Assembly: GCA_963575745.1 (NCBI GenBank)
Contig: CAUYUJ010019099.1
Coordinates: 123,568 to 187,567 of the forward strand
Source of the DNA: Prorocentrum cordatum
Lineage: Eukaryota; Sar; Dinophyceae; Prorocentrales; Prorocentraceae
Reading direction: 5' to 3'
DNA length: 64,000 bases
In this document: positions 34,271 through 62,525 of the stretch, in pieces
Numbering within the stretch: position 1 is the first letter of the stretch
How the letters are laid out: every line of letters starts with the position of its first letter
Notes under the pieces: generated by a model
Seen by the model: the letters and a program-made list of their open reading frames with translations, nothing else
Told to the model about the DNA's origin: nothing
Database searches by the model: none
Program-made: the position numbers and the translations under genes

Positions 34271-34841
<571 letters not shown>

Positions 34842-35136: not shown

Positions 35137-37272
35137 GTGCAAACCCGAGACGACCCTCTGCTGCTTCCTCCGGGAGGCGGTGGAGGAGTTGGAGAAAGCC
35201 CAGCAGAGCTGTGGCTCCCTCCGGGGACTGCGGCGTGCCCGGTGAGAACCCGGGAACCTCTCTCTTCAAGACCTGGGCTCTACTGCCCGGGCCGCCCTTC
35301 GGGGTGTGCCTCAGAGCAATCTGAGGAAACGCTGGAGCCCGCAGAAGCTTTCGAGCACGCTGTGGGGGAAGGCTCGGCCGCGTACGCGGTTGTGCTCTCG
35401 AGTGATCGAGAGAAATGCTGGGTTGATGCCAGCTCTCCCTCCGCGGGTGCGATGCGCGGACACCCCCGGGTTAACCACGCCGGGGTTCATCGACACTTCA
35501 CGGCAGTCGCTCGGGAGTCTCCACTCTCCGAGAGAGATAGTAGTGAAGGGCACCTCGATCCTACCGAGGCTAAACACAGGACCTATGCAGCGGGCGCTCG
35601 GGAGTCTCCTCTCCCTTGGCAGCTAGCTGTTGTGGAAGCCCCAGCTCCGGCTGGGCGCCTGGCCGCGCCGCGCTGTGCGGCCGGGGGAAGTCCCGCGAAA
35701 GCGGGCCCTGGTTCCCCTCCAGGTGGGCCTCGTGCCAAGGGGACCCGGTGGTTCATCACATCGGGTTACACTGAAGGACACGAAGGTTTGGAGAGAATGT
35801 CTGTATGTGCGGAAGCGTGGTGTGGCGGTGCCGCGGCGGGTGCGGTGGGCGGACGCGACTGCGGTCTGCGCTGGGAGGACGAAACGCCCGCGAATTTTTC
35901 GCGGGCGTTTTCGGCGCCAGCGCGGGCTGTGCGGCGCGGGGAGGAGGCCTTTGGGTCAGTGCGCTGGGAGGGGGAAACTATCGCGAATTTTTCGCGACGG
36001 TTTTCTGCTTCGGCGTGTGGCCTGTTGGGCCGAGCGGGCGTCTCGGGAATGGCGCCCTCGGAGGGGGAAACGCTCGCGGATTTTTCCCGAGGGTCTTCTG
36101 CTCCGGGGGCCGCTCGGTGCGGATGTGTCTTTTCGGAGGCAGCGCGCTGGGAGGGGGGAACTATCGCGAATTTTCCGCGAGAGTTTCTCGATTCTGCGCG
36201 TGCGGCGGGCGCGGTGGGCGGACGCGACTGCGGTCCGCGTTCGGAGCAGGAAACGCTCGCGAAATTTTCGCGGCCGTCTTCGGCTCTGGCGCGGGCTGTG
36301 CGCTGCGGAGAGGAGGCTACAGGGCGCTGGGAGGGAGAGTTTCTTTCGGACTTTTCGCGGGAGGTTCCGGCTGCGTCGCGGGCTTCGGCTCCGGTCTTGC
36401 CAGGCGGGATCGCGCGGGCCTCGGATTCCGTCGCTTTGCCCGTCCCAGCGCGGCTCGCTGATCATTCGCCGTGGGAAAGCAGTGATGGCCGTGATTTTAT
36501 AGAGGATTTCGACGCGGGGGAACTTGATGCTTTTGCCGCCAGCGATTGTGACGACGACGACGAGAATGACGATGACGACGATTGGTTTGGAGCTGACGAC
36601 GTCGTCTGGTCAGCCCCGGTCCCGGCGTCCTCTTTGGCAGTGGCGTTGGCCTCGGCTTCTGTCGCGGCCGTGGTCTCGGTCCGGGCTCCGTCTGTGCGGG
36701 GCGCGGAGCGCGCCCCGCAGCTGGGGGGATCTGTGGAGTGGGAGGACCGGCTGCGTGAGAGCTTGCGCGCAGAGCACGACGTGATCAGGGAGGAAGCCGT
36801 GGATGATGCCGCCTGGGAGGCAGCGCAGCGCGAGCAGAAAGCGCATCGCAATGCGTGCCGCGCGTCGCTTCGGAGGTCGCGCTGTGCGCGGCGGGAGGCG
36901 GAGTGGGCGCGGCGGACGGAGGCGGCGGCGGCGCGTAACGAAGAGATGGCGGTCCGTGTCCCGCTTCCAGTCGTGCCGCGCCTTCTTCCGCGCGATGAGT
37001 CGCCGCGTGCGCGCGATGAGTCGCCGCGGCGTGCCCGGGTGTCTCGCGCGGCGCTGGGGGGGCGGAGAAGCGCGCGACTGCAGCAGTTTCTGAATGCCCG
37101 AGCGGCGCGGGCTGTCGATTCGGTGCCCACCCCGCGCGTGGCGCTGTCGTCTCTGGAAGCGCGGGTGTCTGCGCTGTCAGTCGGGGAGGTTGCGCTGATT
37201 GCAGTTTCAGTTTTTGCTGCGCTGGGTCTGTTCCCGCCAAGGCCACAAGTTCTTTCGGGTGCCGCGCTGTGA
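35137..37272 (+). CDS. Acidic, low-complexity N-terminal ORF of the Helitron-like element
   Basis: Open frame of 711 codons; GC-rich and of unknown function. Residues about 240-430 contain six or so copies of a W-E-G-E-T-I-A-N-F-S-R motif. This is a translation of a diverged extension of the neighbouring minisatellite (TATCGCGAATTTTTCGCG). Residues about 450-495 form an acidic tract (SDGRDFIEDFDAGELDAF, then DDDDENDDDDDWF). A basic, helical Arg/Ala-rich part follows (about 540-660), with a doubled PRDESPRARDESPRRA motif, and then a short hydrophobic stretch (VGEVALIAVSVFAALGLFP) at the end. The start codon is uncertain. It could be the N-terminal part of the Helitron polyprotein or an independent ORF1-like product. 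No known domain is seen. Confidence 0.45.
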   Translation: MQTRDDPLLLPPGGGGGVGESPAELWLPPGTAACPVRTREPLSSRPGLYCPGRPSGCASEQSEETLEPAEAFEHAVGEGSAAYAVVLSSDREKCWVDASSPSAGAMRGHPRVNHAGVHRHFTAVARESPLSERDSSEGHLDPTEAKHRTYAAGARESPLPWQLAVVEAPAPAGRLAAPRCAAGGSPAKAGPGSPPGGPRAKGTRWFITSGYTEGHEGLERMSVCAEAWCGGAAAGAVGGRDCGLRWEDETPANFSRAFSAPARAVRRGEEAFGSVRWEGETIANFSRRFSASACGLLGRAGVSGMAPSEGETLADFSRGSSAPGAARCGCVFSEAARWEGGTIANFPREFLDSARAAGAVGGRDCGPRSEQETLAKFSRPSSALARAVRCGEEATGRWEGEFLSDFSREVPAASRASAPVLPGGIARASDSVALPVPARLADHSPWESSDGRDFIEDFDAGELDAFAASDCDDDDENDDDDDWFGADDVVWSAPVPASSLAVALASASVAAVVSVRAPSVRGAERAPQLGGSVEWEDRLRESLRAEHDVIREEAVDDAAWEAAQREQKAHRNACRASLRRSRCARREAEWARRTEAAAARNEEMAVRVPLPVVPRLLPRDESPRARDESPRRARVSRAALGGRRSARLQQFLNARAARAVDSVPTPRVALSSLEARVSALSVGEVALIAVSVFAALGLFPPRPQVLSGAAL

Positions 37273-39028
37273 CGCGCGCGATGGCGCGCGCGCGGATGTG
37301 GAAAGAGAGAGAGAGCTTCTGGCGCGACGTGGACGCTCCGTCCGATGCGGCGCCGTCTGCTGCGAAGGTTCGGGTCGCCAAGTGGTTTTACTGTGGCCTG
37401 CGTGGGCTCTCCGCGCGGAGGTGCGGGGGGCGGCGCGTGTGCGCGCGCAGGTTCTCCCCCGGCATTGGCATCCGCGCTGCCAAGGCCAGGGCGGGCCGGG
37501 GCGCGGACGAGTGCGTGGGGGCGCTGCCTGGAGGGCGTCGCAGAGGGCGGGGCAGTGCGTTGGCGATGCGGCTTTGCGCGTGGCCTGTGTCTTCGCCGCG
37601 CTGGGCGGTGTGTCCTGCGCTGTGTGTTCCCGCGTGGGACGACTCGGTGCTGCTGGGGGGTTTGGCGCGTCCCGTGCGTGGAGGCGGCGCCTTCGACGTG
37701 GCGTCGCGTCGGGGCGACTCGGAGTTGTTGATGCGGGAGATCGCCTGGGGCCGTGGCGGAATAAGTGTCTGCATTTGAGTGTCGCTCGGTGCGGGGGTGC
37801 TGGCGCGCGCGCGCAGGCGGAGGGCTTCTTCGAGTTGCAGTGCGCTAATGATTCCGGAGCTGGGGCGTGCGGTGACGCGGCGGAGAAGGCGAACTTTGCT
37901 CTCGTGCAGGATTGGCTGGAGTCGCGCCGTTCGAGGATGCGAGTCTATGAGGCGGAGAGTGCAGATGGTTTACTGCGTGGGGAGTGTTCCGGCGCGTGGT
38001 TTTTGGGTTCCGCGGGGGGGGCCGAGATCGGCAGCGTTGTGTGGTACCCAGAGGGCCATGTCGCGACGGTCGTTGATGTGGACGGTCGCTTGGCCGCTGG
38101 CGTATCTCTCGGAGCCACAGGCGCCGCGCCGTGGCTGCGGTCGATTGCAGGCGCGCCGAAGAGGAGTGCGCCGAAAAAGAAGGCAGCCGCGAAAAGCAAG
38201 CGAGGTGCGCATCTCCGCGGTGCGCAGAACCCGAACGTCATGGCGGGCGTTGCTGCGCGGGAGCGACGCGCGACCGGTGAGGATGGGGCGCCGTCGTCGT
38301 CTGGCGAGGACATGCCAGTCATCCCGGGAGTCACCGTCGACGATGCCGATTCGGGCGATGCCGCGGGGGCGTCCGTGCTTCGTCGACCTGCAGCTGCGGT
38401 CGCCACGCGCGGCCGTGCGTCTGGGGACGAGAGCGATTCGGGTGAGGACATGCCGATGCTTCCAGGGGTTACGGTGGAAGAGGATGACGCGGGGGCTGCT
38501 CGGGCGCGATCGGACGCCGTCGCACCGCAGGCATCGGCTGCGAGGCGCGCTCTTCGGGGCGCGGCTTCGGCCGCGGCGCCGCCGAGCGATTCTTATGGCG
38601 AGGAGATGCCTGTCCTTCCTGGAGTGACCGTGGACGTCGGGGGTGCTGACGATGGTGCAAGCGATGGCAGCGGGCCGGCCGCGCGTCCGCGCGGTGCCCG
38701 GAGAGCGCGCCGGAAGCGCGGGGCCGCGGACGGGGCGCTTGCGTCCGAGGCAGAGTCCCGGCAGTTCCAGCCGGATTACGTGGACGAGGACCGCTGCAAA
38801 GGGCTGGCGTGGGGGGGGGCTGGGGGCGAGAGCAGTGCCGGTTTCGGCCGAAGACGGGGGGCGACGTGTGCGGGAAGTGCGCTCGATATGGGTGCCCGCA
38901 CGGGCGCGTCAGGGGCCCCATTCCTGCATGCGCGTTGGATAAGTTCAAGGAGTTTGCGCTCAAGGCAAACAAGCCATCTAAGCAGTGGTACGCGCGGCAC
39001 GCGATGTGGGACGTGGCGTCGAAGATGA
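37199..39028 (+). CDS. Helitron-associated ORF with three MPxxPGVTV repeats
   Basis: Open frame of 609 codons. The first half (to about 37,800) is Arg/Ala/Gly-rich and may not be the coding frame; an alternative frame from 37,269 starts MTRAMARARMWKERESFW. From about 37,830 the protein is more ordinary (SADGLLRGECSGAWFLGS, SVVWYPEGHVATVVDVDG). A Lys-rich segment (APKKKAAAKSK) follows, then three spaced copies of an acidic/Ser motif: SGEDMPVIPGVTVDD, SGEDMPMLPGVTVEE and YGEEMPVLPGVTVD. Near the end RCKGLAW begins a zinc module that continues in another frame after a G9 run at 38,811-38,819; adding one G restores it. Residues after that point are out of frame. Function unknown. Confidence 0.5.
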   Translation: MQFQFLLRWVCSRQGHKFFRVPRCDARDGARADVERERELLARRGRSVRCGAVCCEGSGRQVVLLWPAWALRAEVRGAARVRAQVLPRHWHPRCQGQGGPGRGRVRGGAAWRASQRAGQCVGDAALRVACVFAALGGVSCAVCSRVGRLGAAGGFGASRAWRRRLRRGVASGRLGVVDAGDRLGPWRNKCLHLSVARCGGAGARAQAEGFFELQCANDSGAGACGDAAEKANFALVQDWLESRRSRMRVYEAESADGLLRGECSGAWFLGSAGGAEIGSVVWYPEGHVATVVDVDGRLAAGVSLGATGAAPWLRSIAGAPKRSAPKKKAAAKSKRGAHLRGAQNPNVMAGVAARERRATGEDGAPSSSGEDMPVIPGVTVDDADSGDAAGASVLRRPAAAVATRGRASGDESDSGEDMPMLPGVTVEEDDAGAARARSDAVAPQASAARRALRGAASAAAPPSDSYGEEMPVLPGVTVDVGGADDGASDGSGPAARPRGARRARRKRGAADGALASEAESRQFQPDYVDEDRCKGLAWGGAGGESSAGFGRRRGATCAGSALDMGARTGASGAPFLHARWISSRSLRSRQTSHLSSGTRGTRCGTWRRR

Positions 39029-40122
39029 AGCCTGAGCTGAAGTCCTTGTGTGATGTGGACGAGCACAAGCCATTTGTGTTAACGAACAGTGAGTACGAGC
39101 AGTGCCTCAAGCAAGTCCATGACAATCTCCGAACTAATAAGAACCATGGCCGTTCTGGCTTCGTATACGAGAAGGGGGCAGGGGTGCGGACACTGCAGGA
39201 TCGCTGCGGGGAGGGAACTACTCGGTTCGGATCGGAGAGGGAGTCCTACAATGGGCAGCAGGGGGGGAAGGTTTTCATGTGGTACAGCAGGGCGGTCTTC
39301 AACAAGTACCTGGGGCAGCTGCAAGCTTCCGAAATGGATTGTAGCGAGAAGGACTGCGTGGAGGCGTTGCGGTTGACCAGCGAGGAGATCCCGCGGTACC
39401 CAATGAAGCAGCAGTATCTGAAGCCGTACGCAGGCCCGCAGTGCTATCCGCACATTGATCCGCGTTCGAAGGAGAACAGGCTGCACGCGAACGAGAAAAT
39501 GGGGCATGCGCCCGGAGAGGATCCGCAGGGGGGCGGCGACGGCGGCGCTAGGCCCGAGGCGTGCGGGGGAGCCGACGACGGGGCGTCGCACTTGTTCTGT
39601 ATGCGGAATTGGGCGCAGTGCGATCGGTGCCACTGCTGGCGCCTGCTTCTGCCTGCCTGCGCTGCGCGCGCGCGAGGGGATGAGTACTACAGGGTTCGCG
39701 ACGCCGACTTGGATTGGGAGGGGTGGTTGAGGGGGGCGGCGCATCGGTGTGCGGCGGCGGCTGGTGCGTCGAGAGACCAGGACGCTGCGCTCGGTGGGCG
39801 GGGCGGCGACGCCGTGGAGGGTGCGATGCAGCAGGGCGGCGCCGCGGACGAGGGCGGGGGTGGGGGGGGGGGTGCGCGGCGGCGCTCGGAAGCGGCGCCT
39901 GGGGCGGAAGACGTCCGAGGCGGAGGCTGCCGAGCCCGCCGCGGTGCGCGGCGGGGCGCGCAAGCGGCGGCTGGGGCGCAAGACGTCCGAGGCAGAGGCT
40001 GCTGGGGGCGACGCGGGGCGCGAGGCCGCGGGGGCCGGGCGCGCGGGGGAGGGCGCCGCGGAGGTGGCGGCGGCGCGGAAGCGGCGGCTGGGGCGCAAGA
40101 CGTCCGAGGCAGAGGCTGCTGA
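38809..40122 (+). CDS. Cys-rich zinc module and possible CW-type zinc finger
   Basis: The credible part is about 38,820-39,865. It opens with REQCRFRPKTGGDVCGKCAR and YGCPHGRVRGPIP. Together with the RCK of the preceding frame this makes a Cys/His cluster ending in a PHGxxxGPIP motif that I associate with plant- and alga-type nuclear proteins. A Lys/Asp-rich helical region follows, with KQWYARHAMWDVASKMKPEL and an SYNGQQGGKVFMWY segment. Near 39,600-39,735 the pattern NWAQCDRCHCWRLL followed by DWEGW fits the start of a CW zinc finger (W-x-QC-x2-C-x-x-WR). The later Cys pair of a CW finger is not clear. CW fingers read methylated histone H3. The frame fails at a G11 run near 39,862; after it, the frame of the next ORF takes over. 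Confidence 0.55.
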   Translation: MGGGWGREQCRFRPKTGGDVCGKCARYGCPHGRVRGPIPACALDKFKEFALKANKPSKQWYARHAMWDVASKMKPELKSLCDVDEHKPFVLTNSEYEQCLKQVHDNLRTNKNHGRSGFVYEKGAGVRTLQDRCGEGTTRFGSERESYNGQQGGKVFMWYSRAVFNKYLGQLQASEMDCSEKDCVEALRLTSEEIPRYPMKQQYLKPYAGPQCYPHIDPRSKENRLHANEKMGHAPGEDPQGGGDGGARPEACGGADDGASHLFCMRNWAQCDRCHCWRLLLPACAARARGDEYYRVRDADLDWEGWLRGAAHRCAAAAGASRDQDAALGGRGGDAVEGAMQQGGAADEGGGGGGGARRRSEAAPGAEDVRGGGCRARRGARRGAQAAAGAQDVRGRGCWGRRGARGRGGRARGGGRRGGGGGAEAAAGAQDVRGRGC

Positions 40123-40696: not shown

Positions 40697-40979
40697 TTGT
40701 GGGTTGCGCTGATGGAGCCGGGGCGGCCAGGACAGTTCGGGCGCGTGCTGCTGGAGCTGGAGGATCGCGCGCGCGGTCGTGGGCCGAGCGCGGAGCGTTC
40801 GTCTTGGGAGGCGATAGCCGTGGAGGAGATTTCCGTCGTCGCTCGGAGTGGCCCCGAGTGCGTTTCGAGTGTAGTATGTTGCAGACGCCGGTCGTGTCCG
40901 AGAGCGGCGGGACGCAGTGGCGGGCGGTGCGGTGCTGCGATGAGCCGGGCGGGGGCGATGCGGACGATTTCCAGGCTCT
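40697..40979 (+). pseudogene. Frame-shifted linker between the basic region and Rep
   Basis: Protein-like sequence appears in turn in three frames: LWVALMEPGRPGQFGRVLLE after the TAG, then CSMLQTPVVSESGGTQWRAV with CCDEPGGGDADDFQALC, then the frame used by the Rep ORF (ESRVAAGFAANVVRDDDVVV). This points to two single-base indels in about 250 bp. It is probably part of one continuous polyprotein that is broken here. Confidence 0.5.
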
Positions 40980-43900
40980 GTGCAGCGCGAGTCGCGGGTC
41001 GCGGCCGGCTTCGCAGCGAACGTGGTTCGGGATGACGACGTGGTCGTGTTGCCTGTGGAGCGGCCTGCCGGGTGGACGGAGCCCGCGCACATGGCGGGGG
41101 CGTGGTGGCGGGGCCAGGGCTCGCGGGAGCGCAGAGCAGAGGAGGGGGAGAATCCCGGGCGCGTCTGGGTGGGCCAGCTGCAGGAGGACGCCGGCGTGGC
41201 GGGGCTGCTGCCCGAGGGCGGCGCGGGCGAGCGCACTGCGAAAGAGGGGCTCGACGCGCTGCAGCAGGCCGGTCAGGAAGCGCGGGGGGCGGGTCGCGCG
41301 GGTCGTGGCCGGGGGCGCCGGGCGAAGAAGCGCGGTCGGTACGGGAATGTTTTGCGGGCCGTAATTCGGACCAGATGGGCGCCTGGGAGGTCGTCGGAAG
41401 GTGCCGGCCCGGGCGTCGCGGAGTCGTTTGTGTTTGGATCAGCGCCAGAATCGGAGCATTGGGAGATTCGTCCGAATTCGCGTTTGCGCGAGCGCTGCGG
41501 AGGGCATGTAAACCAGCGAGCGCGTGTTGCTGCAGGGGACGTACACCAGAAGTGCATGCTGCTGGCGCTGAAGACGGTGCCGCTGCGCGTGGCGAAGTAT
41601 GACGTGCAGCTGCGCGATGCGTCCGTGCTGGCCGTGCAGGCGGCGCAGGCGATCCTGACGCGCATGGTGAAGTTCACGTGCCACGAGTGCCAGGAGCGGT
41701 TCCCGGCGTTCCACCCTGCCTTCGAGCCGCAGGACCAGCTGGCGGATGAGATGCTGCTGCTGCGTCGCGGCGGGGACGGGCTGGCTGCGTGCAGCACGGA
41801 GGTGGCCGAGTGGGACGAGGTGCCGCCGAGCGACCCGCCGGATGGCTTCGCCCTGGAGTGCGCAGGCGTGTGCATGCGGTGTAGGCGGGATCTGGACAAG
41901 CAGGCGTCGGCCGCGCCCACGGAAGACGACCTGTATCAGGTGGTGGGTCTCCGCACCGCGCAGAATCACATGGACCCGTGCTTCCGGTTCCCCTCCGATG
42001 ACCTGCGCGACCTGTTCGACCAGGCCACGCTCACGGAGAGCCTGCTCATTGCTCTGGACCACGTGCAGGTGCATCTGGCCACCGTGTCTCGGACAGGGCT
42101 GCGCAAGTTCCGCAAGAACATCATCTCGTTCCCGCAGGATGTGGCCGGGTTCGCGCGGCGTCACGAGCTAATGAAGGGGTACCGCGTCGGGGATCGCGTG
42201 AACTCGGTGCGCGGATTTGGCGAGCGCCCCGACGACCCGCACCGCCCGGAGCGCATTGCCGCGGGGGGCACGGACGAGGAGCGGCAGCGCTTCGGCGTGG
42301 ACGTGTACGGGCGCCTGGTGTTTCCCGGTCGGGTCGCGGAGGTGCTGCTCAATGGGGAAGTGATCATCGACTACGACCATGGCGGCAGGGGGAGGGAGCT
42401 TCAGGAGAACGTGGAGCCGCGGGTGATGCTGCCCTGGCACCCGAGGAAGGTGCACTTCAGTCTGATGCTGCGGCGGAACGTTGGTTTCGGGAAGGAGGTG
42501 GTCGAGGGCCTGCACGTGCGCTGGCGCTACTGTGGGCACCTGCTGCGGGCGCTGTGCGCGTTCGCCGGCACGTACGGGCCCTGGCGCCTGGGCGGCACTG
42601 CGAATGAGCCCATGCACAAGTACTACGACCCGCGTTTGTTTGATGTGCTGCCGGACGACGACATCATCCGGTGCTATGCGCCGAAGGAGAGCGACGCCGG
42701 CGCCGTGCTGTCGGGGGACGAGGCGGGGGAAGCCGAGGGGCCGGGGCCGGTGACTCGGGCGGAGGCCATTGCCAGGGATACTGTTCCGTGTGGCGTCGAC
42801 GTCGTCACGCCGCGGCAGTTCATTGCCGCGGGTTTCGACGTGCACTTCGTGGGGCCGCGTGATGAGACTCAGCGAGGGGCGAGAGTCCGCGACGGCGACG
42901 GCGCACAGCGTGGCGACGAGGGCGGCCAGGACGCCGCGGGCGACGGTGGTGCGATGGAGGCAGATGAGGACCAGTTCGATGTCGGGGACGGAGACGAGGC
43001 CATGGCCGTCGATCACGATGTGTTCAGTGCTTGGCTCGAGAAGGCGCAGTTCAGGTACGGCGGGGCTTTGCAGCGATGGTGGGCGGGGCTGCAGCCGGAG
43101 GCGGAGGGTCATTTGGAGGGGCTGAAGTTTGGTGATGACGAGACGACGGAGGACCTTTTCGGGCGCTTGCTGGACGCGGCGCGGGGGGAGAGCAAAGTGG
43201 TGGCCGTGCAGAGGGATCGGGTGCCCGTGGAGTGCGTGTGCGTCGATTTCCTCGTGCACTGGATTGGGCCGCGGGTCGGGGGGCCGTTCTCTGACCCGGG
43301 CGGGGGCGTGACTCCAGAGGCGGTCCTGGACGATGTGATGCTGGAGTTGGCCATGGCTGGCAGGTTCGTGGGAGCTGCTCAGGACAAGGATACGGGGTGC
43401 GTGGAGGAGAGTTTGCCGGAGTTTGACGAGGACGAGGAGGTCGCGCGGACGGGGGAGCGGATGATTTACGGGTGGCCTGGCCAGAGTGACGACCCGATCC
43501 CGGCGCGTTCCGTCGGTCGCTTCGCGAGGGCGTTCCCGTTGGAGTTCCCGATGGGCATCGGCGACCTTTTCGAGGGCCGTCCTCGCCGGGTCTCCGTGCA
43601 GGAGTGGGTGCAGCACCTGATGCGCTACCGCGCCGGGCAGTTCGTTGGTGGTCCGCGTGGGCAGCGCGTGATGTGGGCCATGGTGAACGTGCTGCTCCTG
43701 AACGAGGCCCGGGCGAAGGGTTTCGGCGTGTATCGGACCATGTACAGGCGGGCGGGGCTCGCGGTGCAGGGCCCGAGTGTGATGACCAAGGGTGGGCTTA
43801 GGCAGATCTTGGAGAGCGAGGACCGTGTGCGGATCCTGGTGGGTCAGCTGGCGAACGTTGGGGGCGACGTGCCCTCGACCACGATGCATTGGTCCTATGA

Positions 43901-45224: not shown

Positions 45225-48200
45225 ACTTGCGGAAGGTTCTGGACGAGGCCTTTCAGTCCGAGGCAGCAGGGACGTTGGACGTGCAGCCGGTTTGGAGAAT
45301 GGTGTCCGCGCTGGTGAACAGGGTTGCGCGCCACACGAAGCATGGCATGGGCCCGCCGAAGCTCGGGGTACATGCGTGTGCGCGCGGAAAGGAGGGGTGC
45401 GTGTTCTGCCGGTATGATTTTCCGCGAGAGAGGTGGGGCCGCGTCGGGCCGAGACCGTTCCGGATGGAGAAGGTGCGCAGGGAGGGCCACTGGCAGGCGG
45501 TGTTTCCGAGGAACGACCGGCTCTGCAACAGCTACGAGGAGCACGTGCTCCTGGCCAATATGGGGAACATCGATTGGCGTCCTGTCCTGAACCTGTGGGC
45601 CGTCGTGGAGTACGTCACGAAATATGCGACGAAAGCGCCCAAGGGCTCGCGGAAGATCAAGGATGTGCTGGACGACGCCGTCAACGAGGTCTGCGCGTAC
45701 GTTCCCGACGGCGAGGGCACCGACTTCCTCCGACGCTCGATCCAGAAGTTCTTCGCTCGGATGCTCGGGGAGAGGGATTACCATTGTTACGAAGTGGCGC
45801 TGCTGGGGTTGCGCTTGCCAGTGGTCTTGTCCATGATGCCCGTCGTGACTCTGAACACGACGGGCGCGCGTGCCCTGAAGCCTGCGTCCGCACTGCGGGA
45901 CAAGTCGGAGGATGAGCCGGTTCACTGGAATAGCAAAGTGGACAAGTTCGACAAGCGCCTGGAGTTCGTGCGGCGCCAGCGGGCCCGGGGAGACGGGTCC
46001 ATCACGGAGGAGGAGGTGCGCGATGTGTCACTCTTTGAGTTTTACTGGAAGTACGCCGTGTATCGAGGGAAGCTGAGGCGCGGGAACCCTGCGGTGTGCC
46101 TGCAGGTGACGCCCGGCTACAGCGCGGAGTGTGCGAACGTGGAGCACGCCTGCCACGAGGCGTACGCGCGGGCGAACGTCATCGCGCACTGGCGGCACAT
46201 GGCGACGGTGGACCGCAGAGCCATGATCGGTGCAGAGATGCGGCGCGACGTCCGCCCTGTGCCGGAAGTCTGCATTGGGGCCGCGGATTTCGTGCCCCAT
46301 GCTGGGGGCGATCGGTTCCTGGGAGTGCAGGATTTGTGGTTCAAGTCGGGGGGGGCGGCTTGGAGGGGCAGGGAGGATCGGTTCTGGGGAGATATGTTGA
46401 TGGAGATGCTCACGGACCCGATGCTCCGACAGTGGGTGCCGGCGTGGGTCGTGGAGCAGTACAAACGCGCGAATCCGTTCTACAAGGAGGTGCTGGGCGC
46501 AATCTTGGAGGCTGGTGGGGTGCGGACCAACCGCGAGCTGCTGAGGCGGACGCGCCGCGAGATGGTGCGTCGGCACCGGGCGCGGCAGCAGGGGCGTGAC
46601 GCTGGGGCGGGCGACGCCGCGGGCGACGTGGGGGGCCAGGAAACCGACGGTGGCTCGAGGGAGGGTGACGCTGGCAGAGAGAGCGATGCGGCGGAGTCGG
46701 GGGAGGACGTGGAGGAGCTGGTGGACAGACTCGCGCAGAACGCCGAGGACGATCCCAACGAGGAGCCTCGGGATATCGTGTTGCGCGACCCGCGACCAGG
46801 GGAGGGTGTGGAGGGCGCCGCAGGTGCGGGGGAGGTGTCCGAGTGGGATCGCCGCCCAGCGGATGAGCGTGTTAGCGCGGCGGGCCCCGCGGTGCAGGCG
46901 GCAGACGTGCGCGTCGGGGATGTGGCGCGGGAGGACGTTCGCGCGAGGGTGCGTGTGAACCCGAAGGATTTCAATTGGCTGGATGAACCGTGCAATGTGT
47001 CCACAGGGGAGAAGCGGCGCCTCGAGGGGCTGCGCGATGTCTGGTACGGCAAGGCCAACGTGGGTGACGGGGCCGAGGTCGTCTTGCGCGAAGACCTGGA
47101 TCCCTGGCAGAAGTTTGCTCACGACATCGTTATGGATGGACGCCACTCCGAGAAGGACCCGCTCCGCCTGATGGTCACGGGCGTGGCAGGTACGGGGAAG
47201 TCGCGCACGGTGCGTAGTTTTGTGGCGGCGAGGCGACAGAGGGCGCGTCAGACGGCTCCGCGGACCAGAATGGATCGGGTGCCGGGCCTCCGGGGTGGGA
47301 TGCGCGAGGGAAGGCGCTCTCAGTCGGAGATTGATGAGGAGGTGCGGAATTGCTGTTTGCTGGCTGCTCCGACTGGGTGCGCCTCGTTCCAGTTGAAGTA
47401 TGGGGCGACTACTCTGCACAGGGCTTTCGGTGTTCCGGTGGGGTACTGCGGGCCTTGGAAGCAAAAGGGCGGTGAACGCTTCTTGCGGACGCGGGGCCGG
47501 TTGCGGCAGGCGAAGCTGTTTGTGTTGCATGAGATGAGTATGGTCGGGCGGCAGATGTTGGGGAAGATCGAGTACAAGGTGCAGGACACTCTGGGCACGG
47601 ATGCGAAGTTTGCGGCACGCGGAGGAGGCGGACAAGGAGGAAAGGGGAGGAAGATGGAGGAGGACGAGCCAGTGTATCTCGGCGGGAAGGATGTCGTGCT
47701 GGCAGGAGATCCGCAGCAGGCGCCGCCCATCGGCGACGATCCGTTGTCTCGAATGGGCAAGTATGAGGGGCATGGGAAAAATAAGCCGAGGGGGGCGGAG
47801 CGCACTCCAGACGATGCGTGGAGCACGGAGAAGTTGGTGGCCACGGGCCAGTTTGTGCGCAATACGTTCCAGGACGTCGCCGTGCTACGGCGCGTGCACA
47901 GATGGAGTGGGAAGAAGGAGGGTCTGTCCGCCGAGCGGCAGGCGGAGTGCCGGCGGGATGCCGATCGTTTTCTGGAGGTGACCAAAGGAATAGCGCAGTG
48001 CACGTGGGACCAGTCGGATCATGCGTGGTTGAGGCGCCGGAACAGGTCGGTGCTGCAGATGACGAAGGAGGGCAGGGAGGAGCTCGCAGCGTTCGAGACG
48101 GCGCCGCTGCTGATGGATGGCAGGACGGATCGGGCGTCGGGTGCCTGCGGCGCGGATAGGGTGAACCTGGAGAGGCTGTACCAGGTGGCGGCTGCCAGTG

Positions 48201-48619
48201 GCAAGCCCATTGCGTCTCTGCGCGCCTATCACATTTGGAAGGATAAAAGTAAATCTCGGCCGGAAGAGATGGCGGCCGACGATTTCCGAGGGATCGAGAA
48301 CGAGCTTCACATGTGTGAAGGGGCGCGCGTGCTGCTGACGCAGAACTTGTGGGTCGAGGCGGGGTTGATGAACGGGGCGATGGGCACGCTGCGCGGGTGC
48401 ATGTGGCCGGACGGGGCGGGCCCGCACAACAGTGCGCGCCCGGACTTGCAGGCGCCGATTTGTGTTTTTGTCGAGTTCGACGACGTCGATCTGGGAAAAG
48501 ACGAGAATGGCGAGCCGCGGTCTTTCTTCAAGAACGATCCTGTGCGCAAGAACTGGGTGCCCATCTGGAGGCAGACTGTATCGTCCACGACGGAGGACGG
48601 CCTCGCGCGCGAGAACTAA
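45095..48619 (+). CDS. Helitron Rep C-terminal part and Pif1-type helicase
   Basis: Open frame of 1,174 codons starting from a GTG; it continues the previous ORF after a one-base slip near 45,090. Residues about 80-112 carry the Helitron pattern HACARGKEGCVFCRYDFP. The catalytic pair is in EYVTKYATKA, with Tyr 173 and Tyr 177 (YxxxY as in Helitron Rep). Helicase motifs: Walker A GVAGTGKS (696-703), LLAAPTGCAS (Ia), VLHEMSMV where Walker B should be DE but is His 812-Glu 813, GDPQQAPP (871-878) and GLMNGAMGTLRG. The frame ends at a TAA inside REN*PLQLAWALTHWKAQG, directly before the last motifs, so the protein is cut just short of motif VI. A linker of about 170 residues rich in Asp/Glu and Arg (46,600-46,950) joins Rep and helicase. 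Confidence 0.93.
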   Translation: MQIHVDDEVGAFDVDVEMEDQAAAETSEARAVRSVPASAPECLNLRKVLDEAFQSEAAGTLDVQPVWRMVSALVNRVARHTKHGMGPPKLGVHACARGKEGCVFCRYDFPRERWGRVGPRPFRMEKVRREGHWQAVFPRNDRLCNSYEEHVLLANMGNIDWRPVLNLWAVVEYVTKYATKAPKGSRKIKDVLDDAVNEVCAYVPDGEGTDFLRRSIQKFFARMLGERDYHCYEVALLGLRLPVVLSMMPVVTLNTTGARALKPASALRDKSEDEPVHWNSKVDKFDKRLEFVRRQRARGDGSITEEEVRDVSLFEFYWKYAVYRGKLRRGNPAVCLQVTPGYSAECANVEHACHEAYARANVIAHWRHMATVDRRAMIGAEMRRDVRPVPEVCIGAADFVPHAGGDRFLGVQDLWFKSGGAAWRGREDRFWGDMLMEMLTDPMLRQWVPAWVVEQYKRANPFYKEVLGAILEAGGVRTNRELLRRTRREMVRRHRARQQGRDAGAGDAAGDVGGQETDGGSREGDAGRESDAAESGEDVEELVDRLAQNAEDDPNEEPRDIVLRDPRPGEGVEGAAGAGEVSEWDRRPADERVSAAGPAVQAADVRVGDVAREDVRARVRVNPKDFNWLDEPCNVSTGEKRRLEGLRDVWYGKANVGDGAEVVLREDLDPWQKFAHDIVMDGRHSEKDPLRLMVTGVAGTGKSRTVRSFVAARRQRARQTAPRTRMDRVPGLRGGMREGRRSQSEIDEEVRNCCLLAAPTGCASFQLKYGATTLHRAFGVPVGYCGPWKQKGGERFLRTRGRLRQAKLFVLHEMSMVGRQMLGKIEYKVQDTLGTDAKFAARGGGGQGGKGRKMEEDEPVYLGGKDVVLAGDPQQAPPIGDDPLSRMGKYEGHGKNKPRGAERTPDDAWSTEKLVATGQFVRNTFQDVAVLRRVHRWSGKKEGLSAERQAECRRDADRFLEVTKGIAQCTWDQSDHAWLRRRNRSVLQMTKEGREELAAFETAPLLMDGRTDRASGACGADRVNLERLYQVAAASGKPIASLRAYHIWKDKSKSRPEEMAADDFRGIENELHMCEGARVLLTQNLWVEAGLMNGAMGTLRGCMWPDGAGPHNSARPDLQAPICVFVEFDDVDLGKDENGEPRSFFKNDPVRKNWVPIWRQTVSSTTEDGLAREN

Positions 48620-48782
48620 CCGCTGCAGCTGGCGTGGGCTTTGACGCACTGGAAGGCGCAGGGGATGACGTTGGCGAAAGTCCGCGTGCACATGTCGGCG
48701 AAGACCGCGGCCGTCGCTGGGATCGGGTTCGTCGCAACGACGCGCGTCAGGCATCCGTGGGACTTGGTGTTCGAGGAAGACT
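48620..48782 (+). pseudogene. Terminal helicase motifs after an in-frame TAA
   Basis: Same frame as the helicase ORF. It reads PLQLAWALTHWKAQGMTL, the conserved Pif1 block, and then FVATTRVRHPWDLVFEED, the arginine-finger motif VI. Only one stop (48,617-48,619) separates them from the main ORF, so this is clearly the same protein. At 48,781-48,783 a TTT marks another frame change into LPEYADFM. Confidence 0.88.
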
Positions 48783-49124
48783 TTGCCGGAGTACGCGGAC
48801 TTCATGCGGGCCAGGCACACGACGGCGTTCCGGGAGCGCCGTCGGTTCGAGCTGCGGTTGGAGGCGCGCGCTTCGTCAACGTTGCGGAAGTATGGGTACT
48901 GCGAGGCGGATTTGTGGACTGCAGAGGAGAGGCGTGCGGCGGGGAGATTGTTGGGCCGTCTCGAGACCGTCCGTGCGGCGCAGGCGGAGAGGCTCAGAGG
49001 TCTGAACAGAGTGGTGGATGATGACACTTGGCTCTGGGTGAGGACGGCGCGCCGTGCGTGTCCGCGTTGGCTGAGGCTGTCGATGCCGAGGCGGGGGGTG
49101 ATGACGTCGCGCGGCGGCGTCTGA
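48783..49124 (+). CDS. Post-helicase linker, segment 1
   Basis: Open frame of 113 codons starting LPEYADFMRARHTTAFRERR, which follows naturally from the helicase C-terminus. It is helical and Arg/Glu-rich (STLRKYGYCEADLWTAEERR). It is meaningful to about VVDDDTWLW (49,035); after that the reading passes to another frame. No domain is recognised; probably the linker from helicase to nuclease. Confidence 0.6.
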   Translation: MPEYADFMRARHTTAFRERRRFELRLEARASSTLRKYGYCEADLWTAEERRAAGRLLGRLETVRAAQAERLRGLNRVVDDDTWLWVRTARRACPRWLRLSMPRRGVMTSRGGV

Positions 49125-50011
49125 CCGCCGTGGCTGACAGGCTCCTGGACCGGAAGAGGGTGCGCGGTGCGACGTTGGAGGAACGTGAGGCCGCGCGGGA
49201 GCTGGCGGGTGGGGATGCAGAGGATTTCTATGGTGTTGACACGGTGGAAGAGGTGCGGGGGCGTTTGAGGGCTGCCGCTGCGCGGCTGTCCCGGGAGCGC
49301 CCGGACGACGACGGAGTGGAGTTGTTGGGCCGTGTCGCTGACATGATGGTGGATCGGTGGGTGGCGTGTGGGCGGTGGGATGGTCGCGTGTTCGATGTCG
49401 TGGACCCGAGCCTGGGCCCGCTGCACATGAGCGCTGTGAAGGAGGCCATGGGTGCGCTGGTGCCGCCGAGACTGCACGGGAGCTTGGATAAGGCGGCCAG
49501 GAAGATGAAGGATGCGTTCGGGGACGTTCGCGGTGGCTGCGCGCTGCGGATGGACAAGTGGGTCGTGAACGTGCGGTCGGAGAGCGCTCTGGCGGAGGGC
49601 AGACTGGAGCGTCAGGCGTTGGAGTTCTTCCGGAAGGTGGCGCGACAGCTGTGCTCAGGGTTAGACCTGTCGATGACTGTGGCCTCGGCAAAGGTGGGCG
49701 AGCACGTCGGCGCGGAGGAGAACCCAGAGCATTTTGCTCGGGTGGCGCACAACTGGACGAGCGTTTGGGACGCGAGCTGCGTCAGCGATAAGAAGGAGTT
49801 GCTGTTGGTTGCTGCCGTGGACGCTCTGAGCGTGTCTGGCGTTCCCCAGGATTGGATCTTTGTGCGCGTCCAGGCTGGTCGGGCGGGGGAGGCGCTCGGG
49901 CGTGCCGAGTCTCTTGACCGTGCGCGTGTACGATCGAGGCCGCAGGGAGGCGGTTGCAGGGCGAATCGCTCGGAATATCGACGCGCTGCTGCGGCCGATA
50001 CAGGCCAGTGA
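49028..50011 (+). CDS. Post-helicase region, segment 2 (unknown)
   Basis: Open frame of 327 codons; meaningful from about 49,040 to 49,890. Mostly alpha-helical: AEAVDAEAGGDDVARRRL, GELAGG-type helices, VELLGRVADMMVDRWVAC, VKEAMGALVPPRLHGSL, ALEFFRKVARQLCSGL. It has no Cys/His cluster and no motif I recognise. It ends in LLLVAAVDALSVSGVPQDW and IFVRVQAGRAGE before the frame changes near 49,900. The position between helicase and EEP nuclease suggests a structural linker or a diverged domain. Confidence 0.55.
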   Translation: MALGEDGAPCVSALAEAVDAEAGGDDVARRRLTAVADRLLDRKRVRGATLEEREAARELAGGDAEDFYGVDTVEEVRGRLRAAAARLSRERPDDDGVELLGRVADMMVDRWVACGRWDGRVFDVVDPSLGPLHMSAVKEAMGALVPPRLHGSLDKAARKMKDAFGDVRGGCALRMDKWVVNVRSESALAEGRLERQALEFFRKVARQLCSGLDLSMTVASAKVGEHVGAEENPEHFARVAHNWTSVWDASCVSDKKELLLVAAVDALSVSGVPQDWIFVRVQAGRAGEALGRAESLDRARVRSRPQGGGCRANRSEYRRAAAADTGQ

Positions 50012-50897
50012 TGGGCGGCGCCCGCCACCAGCGGTAGAGTTTGGGGAGGCGCCGCACGTTCGGGTGCCTTCGCAGAGGATCGCCGGCGCACTCGGGCTCC
50101 TGCTGGGCCACGTTGGTCGCGGGGCTGGGGCCGGGGTGCTGGATGCGTCGGCGGAGTCGTTCGTGCCAGACGTGCGTCGTGCGTTGCGGGGCGCGTTCGC
50201 GTCTTTTCGCGCGGGTGTCGGCGCGCGGGGTGCGCGGGATGTCATGGAGTTGTTGCTCTCGGACCAGGAGTGCCGTGACGCTCTGGACCTCTTCGGCGTC
50301 GTCCCGCGCGCGGATGTGTCCGGGCCCAGTGCGGCGGGCGCGGGTCGGGCGATGGCGGGTGTGGTGAGGAGGGCCGCGGACGAGGCAGGCGAGGGAGACG
50401 GCCTTGAGGGCGCGTCGACGTTGTCGTTTGCGACGTGGAACATTGCTGGTGGGCATCGCGCTGCCGTGGCGCCGCATTCCTGGACCGCGCGGGATCATCG
50501 CGCCGCGGTTCTTGGCGAGGTGCTCCGTTGGAGGCAGGCGCGCGGGTGTGACGTCGTTGCCTTGCAGGAGTGCGAGGGCGGGGGCGCGTGCGAGGAGCTG
50601 TCAGGGGAGTTTCAATTGGCGGGCGTTGCGCAGGCGCACGAGTCCAGGGGGTATGTGCATCTGTACGTCAGGCACGGTCTGCGGGCGGAATCTGTGGCTG
50701 TGCCAGGGCAGGATCCGTGCGTGCTGTGCCGTGTCCAGGTTCCCGGAGACGGCGGCGCCGGCGGCGATGGGCACGTGCACGTGGCGGCGGTGCACCTGCC
50801 ACGGACGCGTCATGGGAACGGCGTCGTGCGATACTTGGGAAGATTGTGGCGAAGTGCGGGGACGAATGCCATCGGCTGCTCATCGTGGGCGACATGA
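49860..50897 (+). CDS. EEP nuclease, N-terminal half
   Basis: The credible part is about 49,905-50,818. After a helical lead (TVRVYDRGRREAVAGRIARN and DVMELLLSDQECRDALDL) the endonuclease/exonuclease/phosphatase fold begins. STLSFATWNIAGG carries the motif I Asn (50,439-50,441), GCDVVALQEC the metal-binding Glu (50,568-50,570), and HVHVAAVHLP the His strand (50,793-50,795). The second half of the domain continues in another frame. EEP domains of LINEs, R2-like elements and Helentrons nick DNA; here it may assist target or donor cleavage. Confidence 0.8.
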   Translation: MCASRLVGRGRRSGVPSLLTVRVYDRGRREAVAGRIARNIDALLRPIQASDGRRPPPAVEFGEAPHVRVPSQRIAGALGLLLGHVGRGAGAGVLDASAESFVPDVRRALRGAFASFRAGVGARGARDVMELLLSDQECRDALDLFGVVPRADVSGPSAAGAGRAMAGVVRRAADEAGEGDGLEGASTLSFATWNIAGGHRAAVAPHSWTARDHRAAVLGEVLRWRQARGCDVVALQECEGGGACEELSGEFQLAGVAQAHESRGYVHLYVRHGLRAESVAVPGQDPCVLCRVQVPGDGGAGGDGHVHVAAVHLPRTRHGNGVVRYLGRLWRSAGTNAIGCSSWAT

Positions 50898-53032
50898 CCA
50901 GCACGGATGCGCAGGTGCAGGCAGCCGTGGAGCAGTTGCGTCTGAGGGACGCATGGTATGAGGGCCGATCCTGGGGTTGCCCCGGCAATAAGTTCTATTC
51001 GGGTCTCGGCGAGAGGGGGTCTGTTGGCCAGAGACGTGACCGGGTGCTCTTCGGAGCGGACCTCTGGTCCGAGGTGCACTTGGTAGGGAAATGGAAGGTG
51101 TTCTTCGAGGGTTCCGAGTTCCACATGTCCGACCACTATGGGCTGTTCGGGTATGTGCGTGCCCACGCGTGCTTTGGATCTCGGGAGCAGAAGATGAGGG
51201 CCGTGGCGCAGCGCGCGAGAGTCGTGCTGCAGGCGACTCGCGATCAGTCACAGAGACTGGAGGGTGTGGAGGTTCAGAGTCGGTTACAGCGTGGTCGAGA
51301 GGCCGCGGCGCTGGCCCGGCAGCAGGCGCAGGAACGAGATCGAGAGGCGTACTTGCGGACGCAGCAGCGGGCTGCCGGCCGCCGACAGCGCCGTCGGGAA
51401 CAAGCGATATCCGCAGCGTTCGGGCCACAGAGTTGGTTTGCTTTGGGTCGCCCGGTTCCGCCGCCGCCGAGCCCCTGCCCGCCTCCGCCGCCACCGTGCC
51501 CGGCAGACATGTATGTCCCGAACGTGGCTGGCATTCGCGCGGCTTCGTGGGACAGCGTGCGGTGCGTGCCCGTCCGAGGGATGCCGCGGCCATGGCACAC
51601 CTGCTACGTGGTCAGTGTGACGCAGCTGATGATGCGGACGCCTGCCGTCTTGGAGTGGCTTCGATGGCATTCAGAGCAGCAGTGCGAGGACCGGGCCACG
51701 GGGCGTTGTTGCGTGTGCGGGATGTGGGAGACGTACAACCAGTTGTGCTCGCGACGCTGGCAGCAGGGACCTGTGAGTGTGCTGCGGCGTACGAGCGTTG
51801 ACTGCGACGACGATGTGATGGGGCGGCCGAGTGAGTTCAATGACCCGTGGCAGCAGCAGGATGTGTTTGCGTATTGGGGTAAGCTGATGGTGGCTGCGCG
51901 TGACGCAGAGATGTTGGCAGGTCGGTTTGCGCAGCGGGAACCCGTTAGCATCCGCGCGGTGAATCTGCGGGTGACGTGCGTTGATCAGATGTTCGGGTTC
52001 GTCGTGGAGAAGCGGGAGAAGTGTGACGTGTGCAATTACGAGACTGTCGCGTACGAGGCTGAGGATGTGCTGAAGCTGCGTGTTCATGGGCGTCCAGGTG
52101 GGCCCTTGATGCTGCAGGAGTTGTACTGCGACTTCTGTGCTCCTGAAGAAATCGAGAAGAGCTGCCCGGGGTGTTGCCGCGACGAGCACGACCGGGTTAA
52201 GCACGTGAGGCAGACGAGAGCAACTGGTGTGCCACAGGTTCTGGTGGTTCAATTGAGGAGGGGCACCGAGGCGCGGGAGGCAGTGTGGGTGGAAGAGCAA
52301 CTGAGGCTGCCAGGGCTTCCCCAGATGCAGTTGGTCGGTGTGGTTTACCATAATGGGCGGTCAGTTAATTGCGGCCATTACACGACTCTGTGCCGCGTTC
52401 ATGATGGGAGGTACTTCGTGTTTGACGACGACGAGCCACCGCGCTTGATCCGAGACGAGCCGGCGCACATCAAGCAGAAGGAGGCGTACATGGCAGTGTA
52501 TTGCCGCCTGGGCCGCGGTCAGGGGCAGGGCGCGGGCGCAGGTGCGACCGAGGTGGACGCAGCGCGTGAGGGGCAGGGCAGTGGCGGGAGTGGGCCGGGG
52601 GGCGGTGATGCGAGTGCGTCTGGTGGCGGCGGATGGGGCGGGGGTGGGCTGTTGGTGGTGACGCCGACGGAGCGACGGAGCGCGAGGGGGGGAGTGGGGC
52701 GTCGGCGGCCCGAGGGAACGGGCGCGCGGGCGGCGTCGCTGGCGATCGGGCCGGGGCTTCGGCGTCTGTTGGGTCGAGGGGTGAGCCTACGTCCGGCGGT
52801 GGAGTTGGTGCTGGGCCAGGCCGTGGAGGACGCAGGGAGGGCGTTGTCTCGGTTGCCGCCGCCGAGCCGCGTTCCGCGAGCAGGCGCCTGCGGAGGAAGT
52901 GCGCGTTTTCGACGTCAGGGGAGGGGCGCGCCGTCGAGGGTGATGGTGCGGCTGGGCGGCGAGCGGTCACGACGAAGGGCAGGGCTTCGGGCGCAGCCGA
53001 GTCAAGGGGCGCGGCAGGCGCCCGCGACTTGA
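50570..53032 (+). CDS. EEP nuclease C-terminal half fused to a USP-like (C19) cysteine protease
   Basis: True coding begins near 50,822 and the upstream part of the frame is spurious. EEP motifs: LLIVGDMTS (Asp at 50,891; Thr where GDxN is usual), QRRDRVLF and FHMSDHYGLF (Asp 51,131, His 51,134). A coiled coil (about 51,190-51,420, QRARVVLQATRDQ to RRQRRREQAIS) and a Pro-rich hinge follow. The USP-like domain has a Cys box PRPWHTCYVVSVTQLM (Cys at 51,602, residue 345), a zinc-finger pair KCDVC (52,022) and SCPGCC (52,163), a VLVVQLRRG strand, and a His box NCGHYTTLC (His at 52,376, residue 603) with FVFDDD (Asp 52,424). The family order is complete, but the usual Asn before the Cys is replaced by Trp/His. 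A basic, Ser/Gly-rich tail follows. Confidence 0.85.
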   Translation: MRGRGRVRGAVRGVSIGGRCAGARVQGVCASVRQARSAGGICGCARAGSVRAVPCPGSRRRRRRRRWARARGGGAPATDASWERRRAILGKIVAKCGDECHRLLIVGDMTSTDAQVQAAVEQLRLRDAWYEGRSWGCPGNKFYSGLGERGSVGQRRDRVLFGADLWSEVHLVGKWKVFFEGSEFHMSDHYGLFGYVRAHACFGSREQKMRAVAQRARVVLQATRDQSQRLEGVEVQSRLQRGREAAALARQQAQERDREAYLRTQQRAAGRRQRRREQAISAAFGPQSWFALGRPVPPPPSPCPPPPPPCPADMYVPNVAGIRAASWDSVRCVPVRGMPRPWHTCYVVSVTQLMMRTPAVLEWLRWHSEQQCEDRATGRCCVCGMWETYNQLCSRRWQQGPVSVLRRTSVDCDDDVMGRPSEFNDPWQQQDVFAYWGKLMVAARDAEMLAGRFAQREPVSIRAVNLRVTCVDQMFGFVVEKREKCDVCNYETVAYEAEDVLKLRVHGRPGGPLMLQELYCDFCAPEEIEKSCPGCCRDEHDRVKHVRQTRATGVPQVLVVQLRRGTEAREAVWVEEQLRLPGLPQMQLVGVVYHNGRSVNCGHYTTLCRVHDGRYFVFDDDEPPRLIRDEPAHIKQKEAYMAVYCRLGRGQGQGAGAGATEVDAAREGQGSGGSGPGGGDASASGGGGWGGGGLLVVTPTERRSARGGVGRRRPEGTGARAASLAIGPGLRRLLGRGVSLRPAVELVLGQAVEDAGRALSRLPPPSRVPRAGACGGSARFRRQGRGAPSRVMVRLGGERSRRRAGLRAQPSQGARQAPAT

Positions 53033-53577
53033 CCGCTGGGGTGGGCGGGGGGGCGGTGTCTCCGAGGGAGGGGGGGGTCTCTGGCTCGCCTGGTGGCGCC
53101 GCTCCGCGTTCCGCCGCGCGGCGGGCACGGGAAAAGACGGCGACGCCTCGCTCGGATGCAGGGGCGGCGGGTGGCGCGGCGGGCGCGGCTGGAGTCTGGG
53201 ATGTCGGCGGGGAGCGCGACGTCGCTGGGCCAGGGCGCGTCCGAGGTGCTCGAGGGTCCGGGGGGGCGCGCGCGGGCGGCGGGGGTCTAGGTGGCGATGT
53301 GGCGTGCGCGAGTGTCGCGGGGGGGAAAGATGCGGCAGCGGTGGGGACGGTGTGGGTTTCAGCGTCGGGGAAACGAAAGGTGGAGCCTCGGTCAGAGGCG
53401 GAGGTCCCGCGGAGGAGCTCGGCGCGTTTGGCGGCGCGAGCTGCGCCCGGCCCCGTCGCGGTCGAGGAGGGGGCTGCCGCGGGCGAGGGCGCGTATATAC
53501 GGGGGGGGTGCTGGTGCGCCCGAGGCGCGCGGAGCCGTCTGGACCGTCGAGTGGCGGCGGCGCCGCGCGAGTGGTGA
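52633..53577 (+). CDS. Possible C-terminal tail in another frame
   Basis: A Gly/Ala/Arg-rich 314-codon frame overlapping the tail of the USP-like ORF. Short basic motifs PRSASRRLRRK, PRSAARRAREK and PRRSSARLAARAA recur at intervals and resemble GRRSARLQQF in the first ORF of the element. This suggests the polyprotein ends here after another frame change near 52,870. Composition alone cannot prove it is coding. Confidence 0.35.
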   Translation: MGRGWAVGGDADGATEREGGSGASAARGNGRAGGVAGDRAGASASVGSRGEPTSGGGVGAGPGRGGRREGVVSVAAAEPRSASRRLRRKCAFSTSGEGRAVEGDGAAGRRAVTTKGRASGAAESRGAAGARDLTAGVGGGAVSPREGGVSGSPGGAAPRSAARRAREKTATPRSDAGAAGGAAGAAGVWDVGGERDVAGPGRVRGARGSGGARAGGGGLGGDVACASVAGGKDAAAVGTVWVSASGKRKVEPRSEAEVPRRSSARLAARAAPGPVAVEEGAAAGEGAYIRGGCWCARGARSRLDRRVAAAPREW

Positions 53578-53892
53578 CAGGTTTCGGTGCGGGGAGGATC
53601 GAGAACTTGGCTGCGTTCCAGCGCAGCCGCGATTTGGGGGATGCGACGCGCGCGTCGCAGCGGGTCTCGGAGGGGGCCCGAGGGAGGTGCGTGGTTATGC
53701 AGGGGAATGAGCTGGATCCGTCTGCGGGGTCCGCCTGGCATGCGGGTCGATAGGGCGGGGGGTGCGGTGGGAGCTGGGTGTTGAGGGGGGAAGAGTGGGG
53801 AAGCAAGACGGGGGGGGGGGGAGCGGGTGAACTAGGGCAAGGCTGTGCTGCGAGGTTCGGCTACTCCCCCCTCAAGTCTTTTCTCTCCGCTG

Positions 53893-53977
53893 GCGCTCCG
53901 TGAGGGCGAAGTGGCTGGAGCGGAGGGAGGGCTGGCCCCGTAGTGGGGCGGTGCCTCCCCCGTCCGGTGCGCCAGCG
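53893..53977. repeat. Nested palindrome module M, copy 1
   Basis: Longest outer stem of the family: CGCTGGCGC (53,889-53,897) against GCGCCAGCG (53,969-53,977). The inner hairpin is GCCCC, loop GTAGT, GGGGC. It sits directly downstream of the Helitron-like coding region, about 110 bp after the last plausible coding sequence. Confidence 0.8.
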
Positions 53978-54129
53978 AGGAGGGGGGTGCGCGTGGATGA
54001 AGGGCTGGAACTCTTTGTGGCGGTGGCGCCGATCAAGTGGTGGATGGTTCCGAAGGGATCGATGATTGGAGGGGCCTGGGGAGGGTCTCGGGTATGCCGG
54101 GAAATGAGTTGGATCCGTCGGCGTGGTTG

Positions 54130-54372: not shown

Positions 54373-54413
<41 letters not shown>

Positions 54414-62467: not shown

Positions 62468-62514
<47 letters not shown>

Positions 62515-62525
62515 GCGCGTGTATT

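Follow-up and report, generated by a model that had tools for sequence, protein, structure and literature searches.

Which kind of element, if a single one, unites the Rep, Pif1 helicase, EEP nuclease and protease segments that follow each other on one strand near the end of contig C18250? The stretch analysed here, hereafter the window, makes up the final 64 kb of this contig, and a sequence-only reading of it had proposed a Helitron-like element that joins Rep, Pif1 and EEP to a domain resembling a ubiquitin-specific protease (USP). Our analysis supports that proposal, since a single open reading frame (ORF) on another contig of the same genome, C229, carries all four domains. We consider it likely that what the locus holds has decayed from a giant rolling-circle transposon present in many copies, one that belongs to the Helitron group, resembles Helentrons in having an EEP nuclease behind Rep-Pif1, and has a USP fused behind the EEP.

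Base composition sets the region apart, with a GC content of 0.65–0.72 across 30–54 kb of the window against about 0.46–0.62 below 30 kb. From 41.5 to 52.5 kb, five blocks show a coding-type distribution of GC over codon positions (0.47–0.56 at the second, 0.74–0.83 at the third), and a shorter block with a coding-type codon pattern lies at 38.8–39.7 kb. The coding features are, with the evidence in brackets:

38797..39702, + strand: Cys/His-rich coding block (DVCGKCARYGC at 38863), zf-CW match at E 0.024 (Pfam, codon pattern)
41541..45125, + strand: weak DUF6570-like segment and N-terminal part of Rep, HYH at 44382, frame 1 (Pfam, tblastn, motif)
45089..48616, + strand: C-terminal part of Rep, YVTKY at 45611, and Pif1-like helicase, frame 0 (Pfam, tblastn, motif)
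48617..48619, + strand: in-frame stop within the end of the helicase, where the C229 ORF is open (sequence comparison)
48620..49913, + strand: C-terminal helicase motifs (QGMTL at 48659) and a linker matched by database proteins P0001 and P0006, with frame changes (tblastn)
50427..51142, + strand: EEP (Exo_endo_phos) nuclease over two frames, GDMT at 50888 (Pfam, tblastn, motif)
51560..52504, + strand: USP (peptidase C19, UCH) domain (Pfam, motif, model)
52505..53750, + strand: low-complexity linker and conserved C-terminal tail, the end of the polyprotein (tblastn, alignment)

All motifs named in the sequence-only reading were recovered on the + strand in the order it gave, from HYH at 44382 through the helicase motifs GVAGTGKS (47180) and GDPQQAPP (47705) to FDDD at 52421, and the Pfam matches exceed chance. 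Among ten + strand ORFs scanned at E <= 0.1, three match PIF1 (E 2.8e-9), Exo_endo_phos (E 2.4e-5; 24.7 bits, just above the 24.5 cut-off) and UCH (E 3.7e-15; 56.6 bits against a curated cut-off of 23.9), in that order; two carry sub-cut-off matches, to DUF6570 and zf-CW, and five have none. Three of the suggested profiles thus find their domains, whereas Helitron_like_N matches none of the window ORFs. The USP-like domain is complete as described, with a Cys box (51581–51607), zinc-finger Cys pairs and a His box (52370–52384). Other details need amending: both Rep motifs are present but do not share a frame in this copy, and the EEP motif set is not complete, as the window reads GDMT where C229 reads GDMN. 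Similarly, the zinc modules claimed upstream are clear in the block at 38.8–39.7 kb, which corresponds to an N-terminal part of the ORF in C229, but the frames at 35.1–38.6 kb show little codon periodicity.

The C229 copy is better preserved. It contains one open frame, nt 2820–22727, of 6,636 codons without any N in the 26 kb examined; this figure is the length of the open frame, within which the protein may start further downstream. A transposon with a single ORF of ~20 kb is, to our knowledge, an exception. Along it follow HYH (residue 3513), YVTKY (3923), the Walker A motif (4446), the EEP (from 5528), the USP Cys box (5918) and the C-terminal tail, and in Pfam one piece of the ORF matches both PIF1 (2e-9) and Exo_endo_phos (1.3e-10), the next one UCH (1.8e-15). 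The window is 98.05% identical to C229 across 16,998 bp from 40054 on, a span that includes part of a TCTG array behind the ORF. Collinearity of the two copies begins within a tandem-repeat array, where the longest single match puts the start at 33.65 kb (ambiguous, since it falls within repeats), and extends to at least 57.0 kb, so the shared unit measures at least 23 kb, and the ~18.6 kb first proposed for the element is too short.

Against this template, the window copy is recognisable as one collinear protein in tblastn with 35 database proteins, with frame changes near 45.1, 48.8, 49.04, 49.91, 50.80, 52.6 and 53.5 kb, for which assembly indels and real decay are indistinguishable. Introns as the source of the broken frames were rejected: the C229 ORF reads through all of these places, and relatives span several of them unbroken. 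Towards the N-terminus the window copy also lacks ~2.8 kb that C229 has, and it holds ~0.3 kb extra. Judged from these comparisons, it is a damaged, decayed copy of a larger multicopy element.

The further copies that the sequence-only reading suggested looking for were found in numbers. Searches of the same genome (4.13 Gb, 21,875 contigs) listed 127 rows for the window USP (503 candidates, 126 scored) and 117 for the window Rep (514 candidates, 117 scored). One USP match, on C7114, is split over two rows; once the 34-residue second one was set aside, 126 USP and 117 Rep places remained. These and all following copy counts hold among the matches listed, so both totals are lower bounds and absence from the rows is weak evidence. 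By identity to the window USP, 101 of the 126 places, the window included, lie at 94% or above, 12 at 74% and 13 between, and the Rep places other than the window itself are 92–98% identical. A Rep lies 6.1–10.1 kb upstream on the same strand at 62 of the 126 USP places, mostly at a spacing of 8.05–8.13 kb; 14 of these 62 pairs report equal open-frame lengths, as one ORF would, although the lengths so reported may treat stretches of N as open (C229, having no N, is exempt). Together, the USP and Rep rows span 171 contigs and at least two subfamilies, so this 4.1-Gb genome holds many copies of the element.

An AF2 model of the window USP, built with ten aligned sequences, reached pLDDT 75 and pTM 0.79, and the best 50 of 981 Foldseek matches in the PDB are USP-type structures with E values from 5e-19 to 4e-17 and query TM of 0.64–0.74, led by USP46 (E 5.2e-19, TM 0.73). 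The catalytic Cys, His and Asp are present in the USPs of the window, C229, C20571 and C2215, of which the last three belong to copies whose frame stays open over a long distance (in C2215, possibly with N counted in). We compared USP DNA in six copies, one of which, C5614, has an in-frame stop, with a simple counting script that gives dN/dS values without confidence limits. The three open-frame copies gave dN/dS of 0.17 (C229–C20571), 0.30 (C229–C2215) and 0.25 (C20571–C2215) at dS of 0.30–0.70. All 15 pairs ranged over 0.17–0.58, the 13 with dS >0.25 over 0.17–0.30, and two very close pairs gave 0.43 and 0.58. Between the window and C229, dN/dS is 0.19–0.54 over seven coding blocks, with few differences to count. 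This pattern fits a predicted enzyme under selection inside the element and not a captured fragment. No deubiquitinase of the OTU or herpes-tegument type was matched by Pfam in the ten window ORFs (E <= 0.1) or the C229 ORF (E <= 1).

Database proteins show the same parts joined elsewhere. P0001 (1,351 aa; 88% to the window USP) runs from the end of the helicase region (tblastn) through EEP and UCH (Pfam), P0038 combines the helicase end (by similarity) with EEP and UCH (Pfam), and P0036 and P0040 hold EEP and UCH in one protein (Pfam). At the other end of the polyprotein, P0004 and P0009 carry Rep motifs plus PIF1, and P0025 has weak DUF6570 and Helitron_like_N matches. The C-terminal tail is shared by P0002, P0039, P0040, the window and C20571. 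P0041 keeps the EEP and the zinc-finger Cys pairs of a USP-like region that lacks the catalytic Cys and His, possibly a dead, binding-only USP judging by its residues. In P0003, P0037 and P0039, an OTU-like motif stands behind the USP or its remnant, by motif only and with Pfam not confirming it; a model of P0003 (pLDDT 34) was too poor for use. The proposal that a USP replaces the OTU protease therefore holds for the window's own family but perhaps not for P0003 and P0037. A zinc-like stretch, RxWNG with Cys/His residues, is also common to P0003, P0037 and P0039, and P0037 in addition matches ASCH weakly. Two Rep-helicase relatives, P0017 and P0033, occur in records named as bacterial metagenome-assembled genomes (Halioglobus sp. 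and Actinomycetales bacterium), which are probably mis-binned eukaryotic contigs.

Membership in the Helitron group is indicated by several features. Rep carries an HUH motif, which reads HYH in the window and GGNPHxHG at the same place in P0004, P0009 and P0025; the Tyr motif follows downstream of it within one protein in C229; a Pif1-type helicase is fused to Rep; and the EEP is fused C-terminally to Rep-helicase, PIF1 and EEP being joined in P0006 as well. An EEP/AP-type endonuclease C-terminal to Rep-helicase, together with extra domains, is also what PMC4067079 describes for Helentrons, and there a microsatellite is noted for the related non-autonomous DINE-1, as beside the window element. 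The window element differs from these Helentrons in having a USP where OTU (or VTD) is described, in its 6,636-codon ORF and in a Rep below the Pfam cut-off. With Helitrons bearing VTD and/or OTU (PMC9741609) it shares a deubiquitinase-type cysteine protease on a Helentron-type element, but it has a USP fold and sits in what may be a protist genome. A protein of Trichomonas vaginalis joins a USP-class domain (peptidase C19) to a transposase, Transposase_11, but not to Rep-Pif1 (PMC2836005).

Several observations weigh against this assignment. Helitron_like_N finds no match in the C229 ORF either, even at E <= 1; the nearest approaches are P0025 (1.4e-4, 22.6 bits, below the 28.9 cut-off) and P0035, which lists PF14214 (Helitron_like_N) in the database's precomputed annotation. 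Nine canonical Rep ORFs from this genome were compared by profile with the Rep family of the window; only a stretch around the Tyr motif aligns (E 0.0013, probability 19%). The residue five before the catalytic Cys, which we take to be the oxyanion Asn of USPs, is Arg in the window, P0001, P0036 and P0038 and Asn in P0040; we did not treat this Asn as defining USP membership. C229 starts inside repeats and the window ends with its contig, so neither copy shows the ends, the target site or an empty site. Furthermore, among the matches listed, 64 of the 126 USP places have no Rep 6.1–10.1 kb upstream and 55 of the 117 Rep places no USP partner. Lastly, same-strand double copies occur on C20571, C204, C3075 and C6167, 33.5, 32.0, 38.2 and 40.7 kb apart.

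The unpaired places can be broken down further. Of the 64 USPs, 47 are at least 94% identical to the window USP and are thus copies of the same element, 10 lie on the + strand with <8.1 kb of contig upstream, and one, on C7354, has a Rep 5.0 kb upstream; three of the 55 Reps lie on the - strand near a contig start. Truncated copies are likely to be among them. As for Rep, the canonical Helitrons of this genome seem to be a different matter: at 20 of 151 listed Helitron_like_N places, followed for 10 kb from Rep on, tblastn with the domains of the window's family found no EEP or USP, a search that would miss unrelated domains of either kind. Three weak helicase matches turned up in those 20 places, and eight loci (L001–L008) gave no match to the 35 family proteins at 1e-3. 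The presence of the same package in canonical Helitrons of the genome is thus not supported, and the package seems to belong to a divergent Rep branch.

The double copies bear on how the element spread, for which duplication without mobility is the main rival explanation: copies would have arisen mainly by tandem or segmental duplication, in the manner of dinoflagellate arrays, with mobility extinct and the gene now a repeated genomic unit. The same-strand pairs 32–41 kb apart on four contigs do suggest that some of the copy number may have this origin, and the window and C229 have a flanking microsatellite in common. We nonetheless find duplication rather unlikely as the main route, since the copies are scattered over 171 contigs and at least two subfamilies, the match between C20571 and the window ends ~35 bp after the stop codon (microsatellite excepted), and relatives occur in other data sets. 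The same-strand double copies could also be rolling-circle concatemers. A fifth same-strand pair, on C2590, is 44.5 kb apart and combines two different subfamilies.

If the element is a rolling-circle transposon of the Helitron group, its domains suggest a division of labour. In Helitrons, Rep is responsible for nicking one strand and transferring it, and Pif1 for unwinding (PMC6431247). Here, Rep would nick and join single strands, Pif1 would unwind DNA and the EEP, by analogy with LINE-type EEPs, would nick the target. The substrate of the USP may be the giant polyprotein itself or host factors present where transposition occurs; by removing their ubiquitin, it would keep the transposition complex from degradation or shutdown. 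For Helitron VTDs, deubiquitination has been proposed to prevent proteasomal degradation of proteins needed for transposition (PMC9741609). The USP here can be read likewise, and we put the case for a USP that protects the transposition complex by removing ubiquitin at an even balance.

The main rival for the role of the USP is polyprotein processing, in which it would cut the giant protein into Rep-helicase, nuclease and further pieces and not act as a deubiquitinase. USPs normally require a ubiquitin moiety, Pfam finds no ubiquitin-like domain in the pieces of the C229 ORF at E <= 1, and the sole LRGG string in that ORF falls in the helicase region, at residue 4482. A processing protease is therefore unlikely to us, even with all domains carried by one 6,636-codon ORF and a processing role suggested for the OTU proteases of Helentrons (PMC4067079). 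Finally, chance adjacency would mean that a Helitron came to lie by accident beside a host USP gene and an EEP of LINE type. The broken frames of the window copy are the only hint of it. This explanation, which the sequence-only reading had proposed to check, is extremely improbable and was rejected for the USP by the single open ORF of C229 and the same-strand Rep–USP spacing recurring in 62 pairs, to which the EEP–UCH fusions in P0001, P0036, P0038 and P0040 add.

In the literature searched, from which subscription literature was largely absent, we found no report of a USP-class domain in a Helitron. Helinoto (2014), an icefish Helitron2, reportedly has 'three deubiquitinase-like domains' according to a title and may be prior art. 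OTU and VTD deubiquitinases are already known from Helitrons (PMC9741609, PMC4067079), and one of these papers suggests that different deubiquitinase classes can fill the same role (PMC9741609). Tentatively, giant Helentrons of this kind may form a branch of their own, probably carried by protists, in which a single protein of >6,600 residues holds all that the element encodes and deubiquitinases are exchangeable parts. The active-looking USP here, the USP with OTU-like motif in P0003 and P0037 and the USP-like region without Cys and His in P0041 may, as far as their motifs tell, reflect such exchange. If so, a ubiquitin-removing module of any class would be a convergent need of endonuclease-bearing Helitrons. 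A third, differently folded deubiquitinase class under purifying selection suggests that ubiquitin removal belongs to the life of endonuclease-bearing rolling-circle transposons, and a USP-bearing Helitron gives a testable case for its role.

Repeats flank the coding region on both sides, none with an assigned strand:

31588..34265: ~99-bp tandem repeats with a short palindrome, of the CGCGAATTTTTCGCG type, on the 5' side (tandem-repeat scan)
34629..34840: (CGA)n array, present in C229 too (tandem-repeat scan, alignment)
53892..54249: two copies of a ~80–110-bp GC-rich motif, hairpin-like by eye, behind the ORF (repeat comparison)
54244..63179: TCTG/TGTG microsatellite array (tandem-repeat scan)

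It is within repeats of the ~99-bp type that contig C229 starts. Palindrome-bearing tandem repeats occur at 35833–36317 as well, with degenerate copies continuing into a long open frame, and further copies of the GC-rich hairpin-like motif lie at about 57117, 59283, 59800 and 62600. The TCTG/TGTG array is collinear with C229 up to 57.0 kb and was thus probably copied along with the element. Adjoining its right edge, a dispersed repeat at 63180–63368 (also at 10618–10806 and, inverted, at 27606–27793) marks a candidate unit boundary; candidate edges near 27.9 and 63.18 kb may delimit a unit of ~35 kb. Mapping from C20571 and C2215 yielded no element ends.

A spliced-leader pattern sought in the window gave no match, and scans of IMG/VR for relatives were unproductive. 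The tRNA-Pro that ARAGORN places at 30290–30389, within a (CTCGGG)n array, is almost certainly a false prediction. The N-terminal region of C229, with which a PDB sequence search found no match, contains a module of ~120–150 residues twice (residues ~376–530 and ~1326–1500). In both, a Cys is followed further on by a GHV..VD string, which resembles papain-like enzymes at the level of motifs alone; one of the two is present in the window copy, which misses ~2.8 kb in this region. Behind the USP of C20571 (L033), at a distance of ~7–9 kb, there is a coding stretch that resembles a retroelement, its likeness to reverse transcriptase being judged by eye only.

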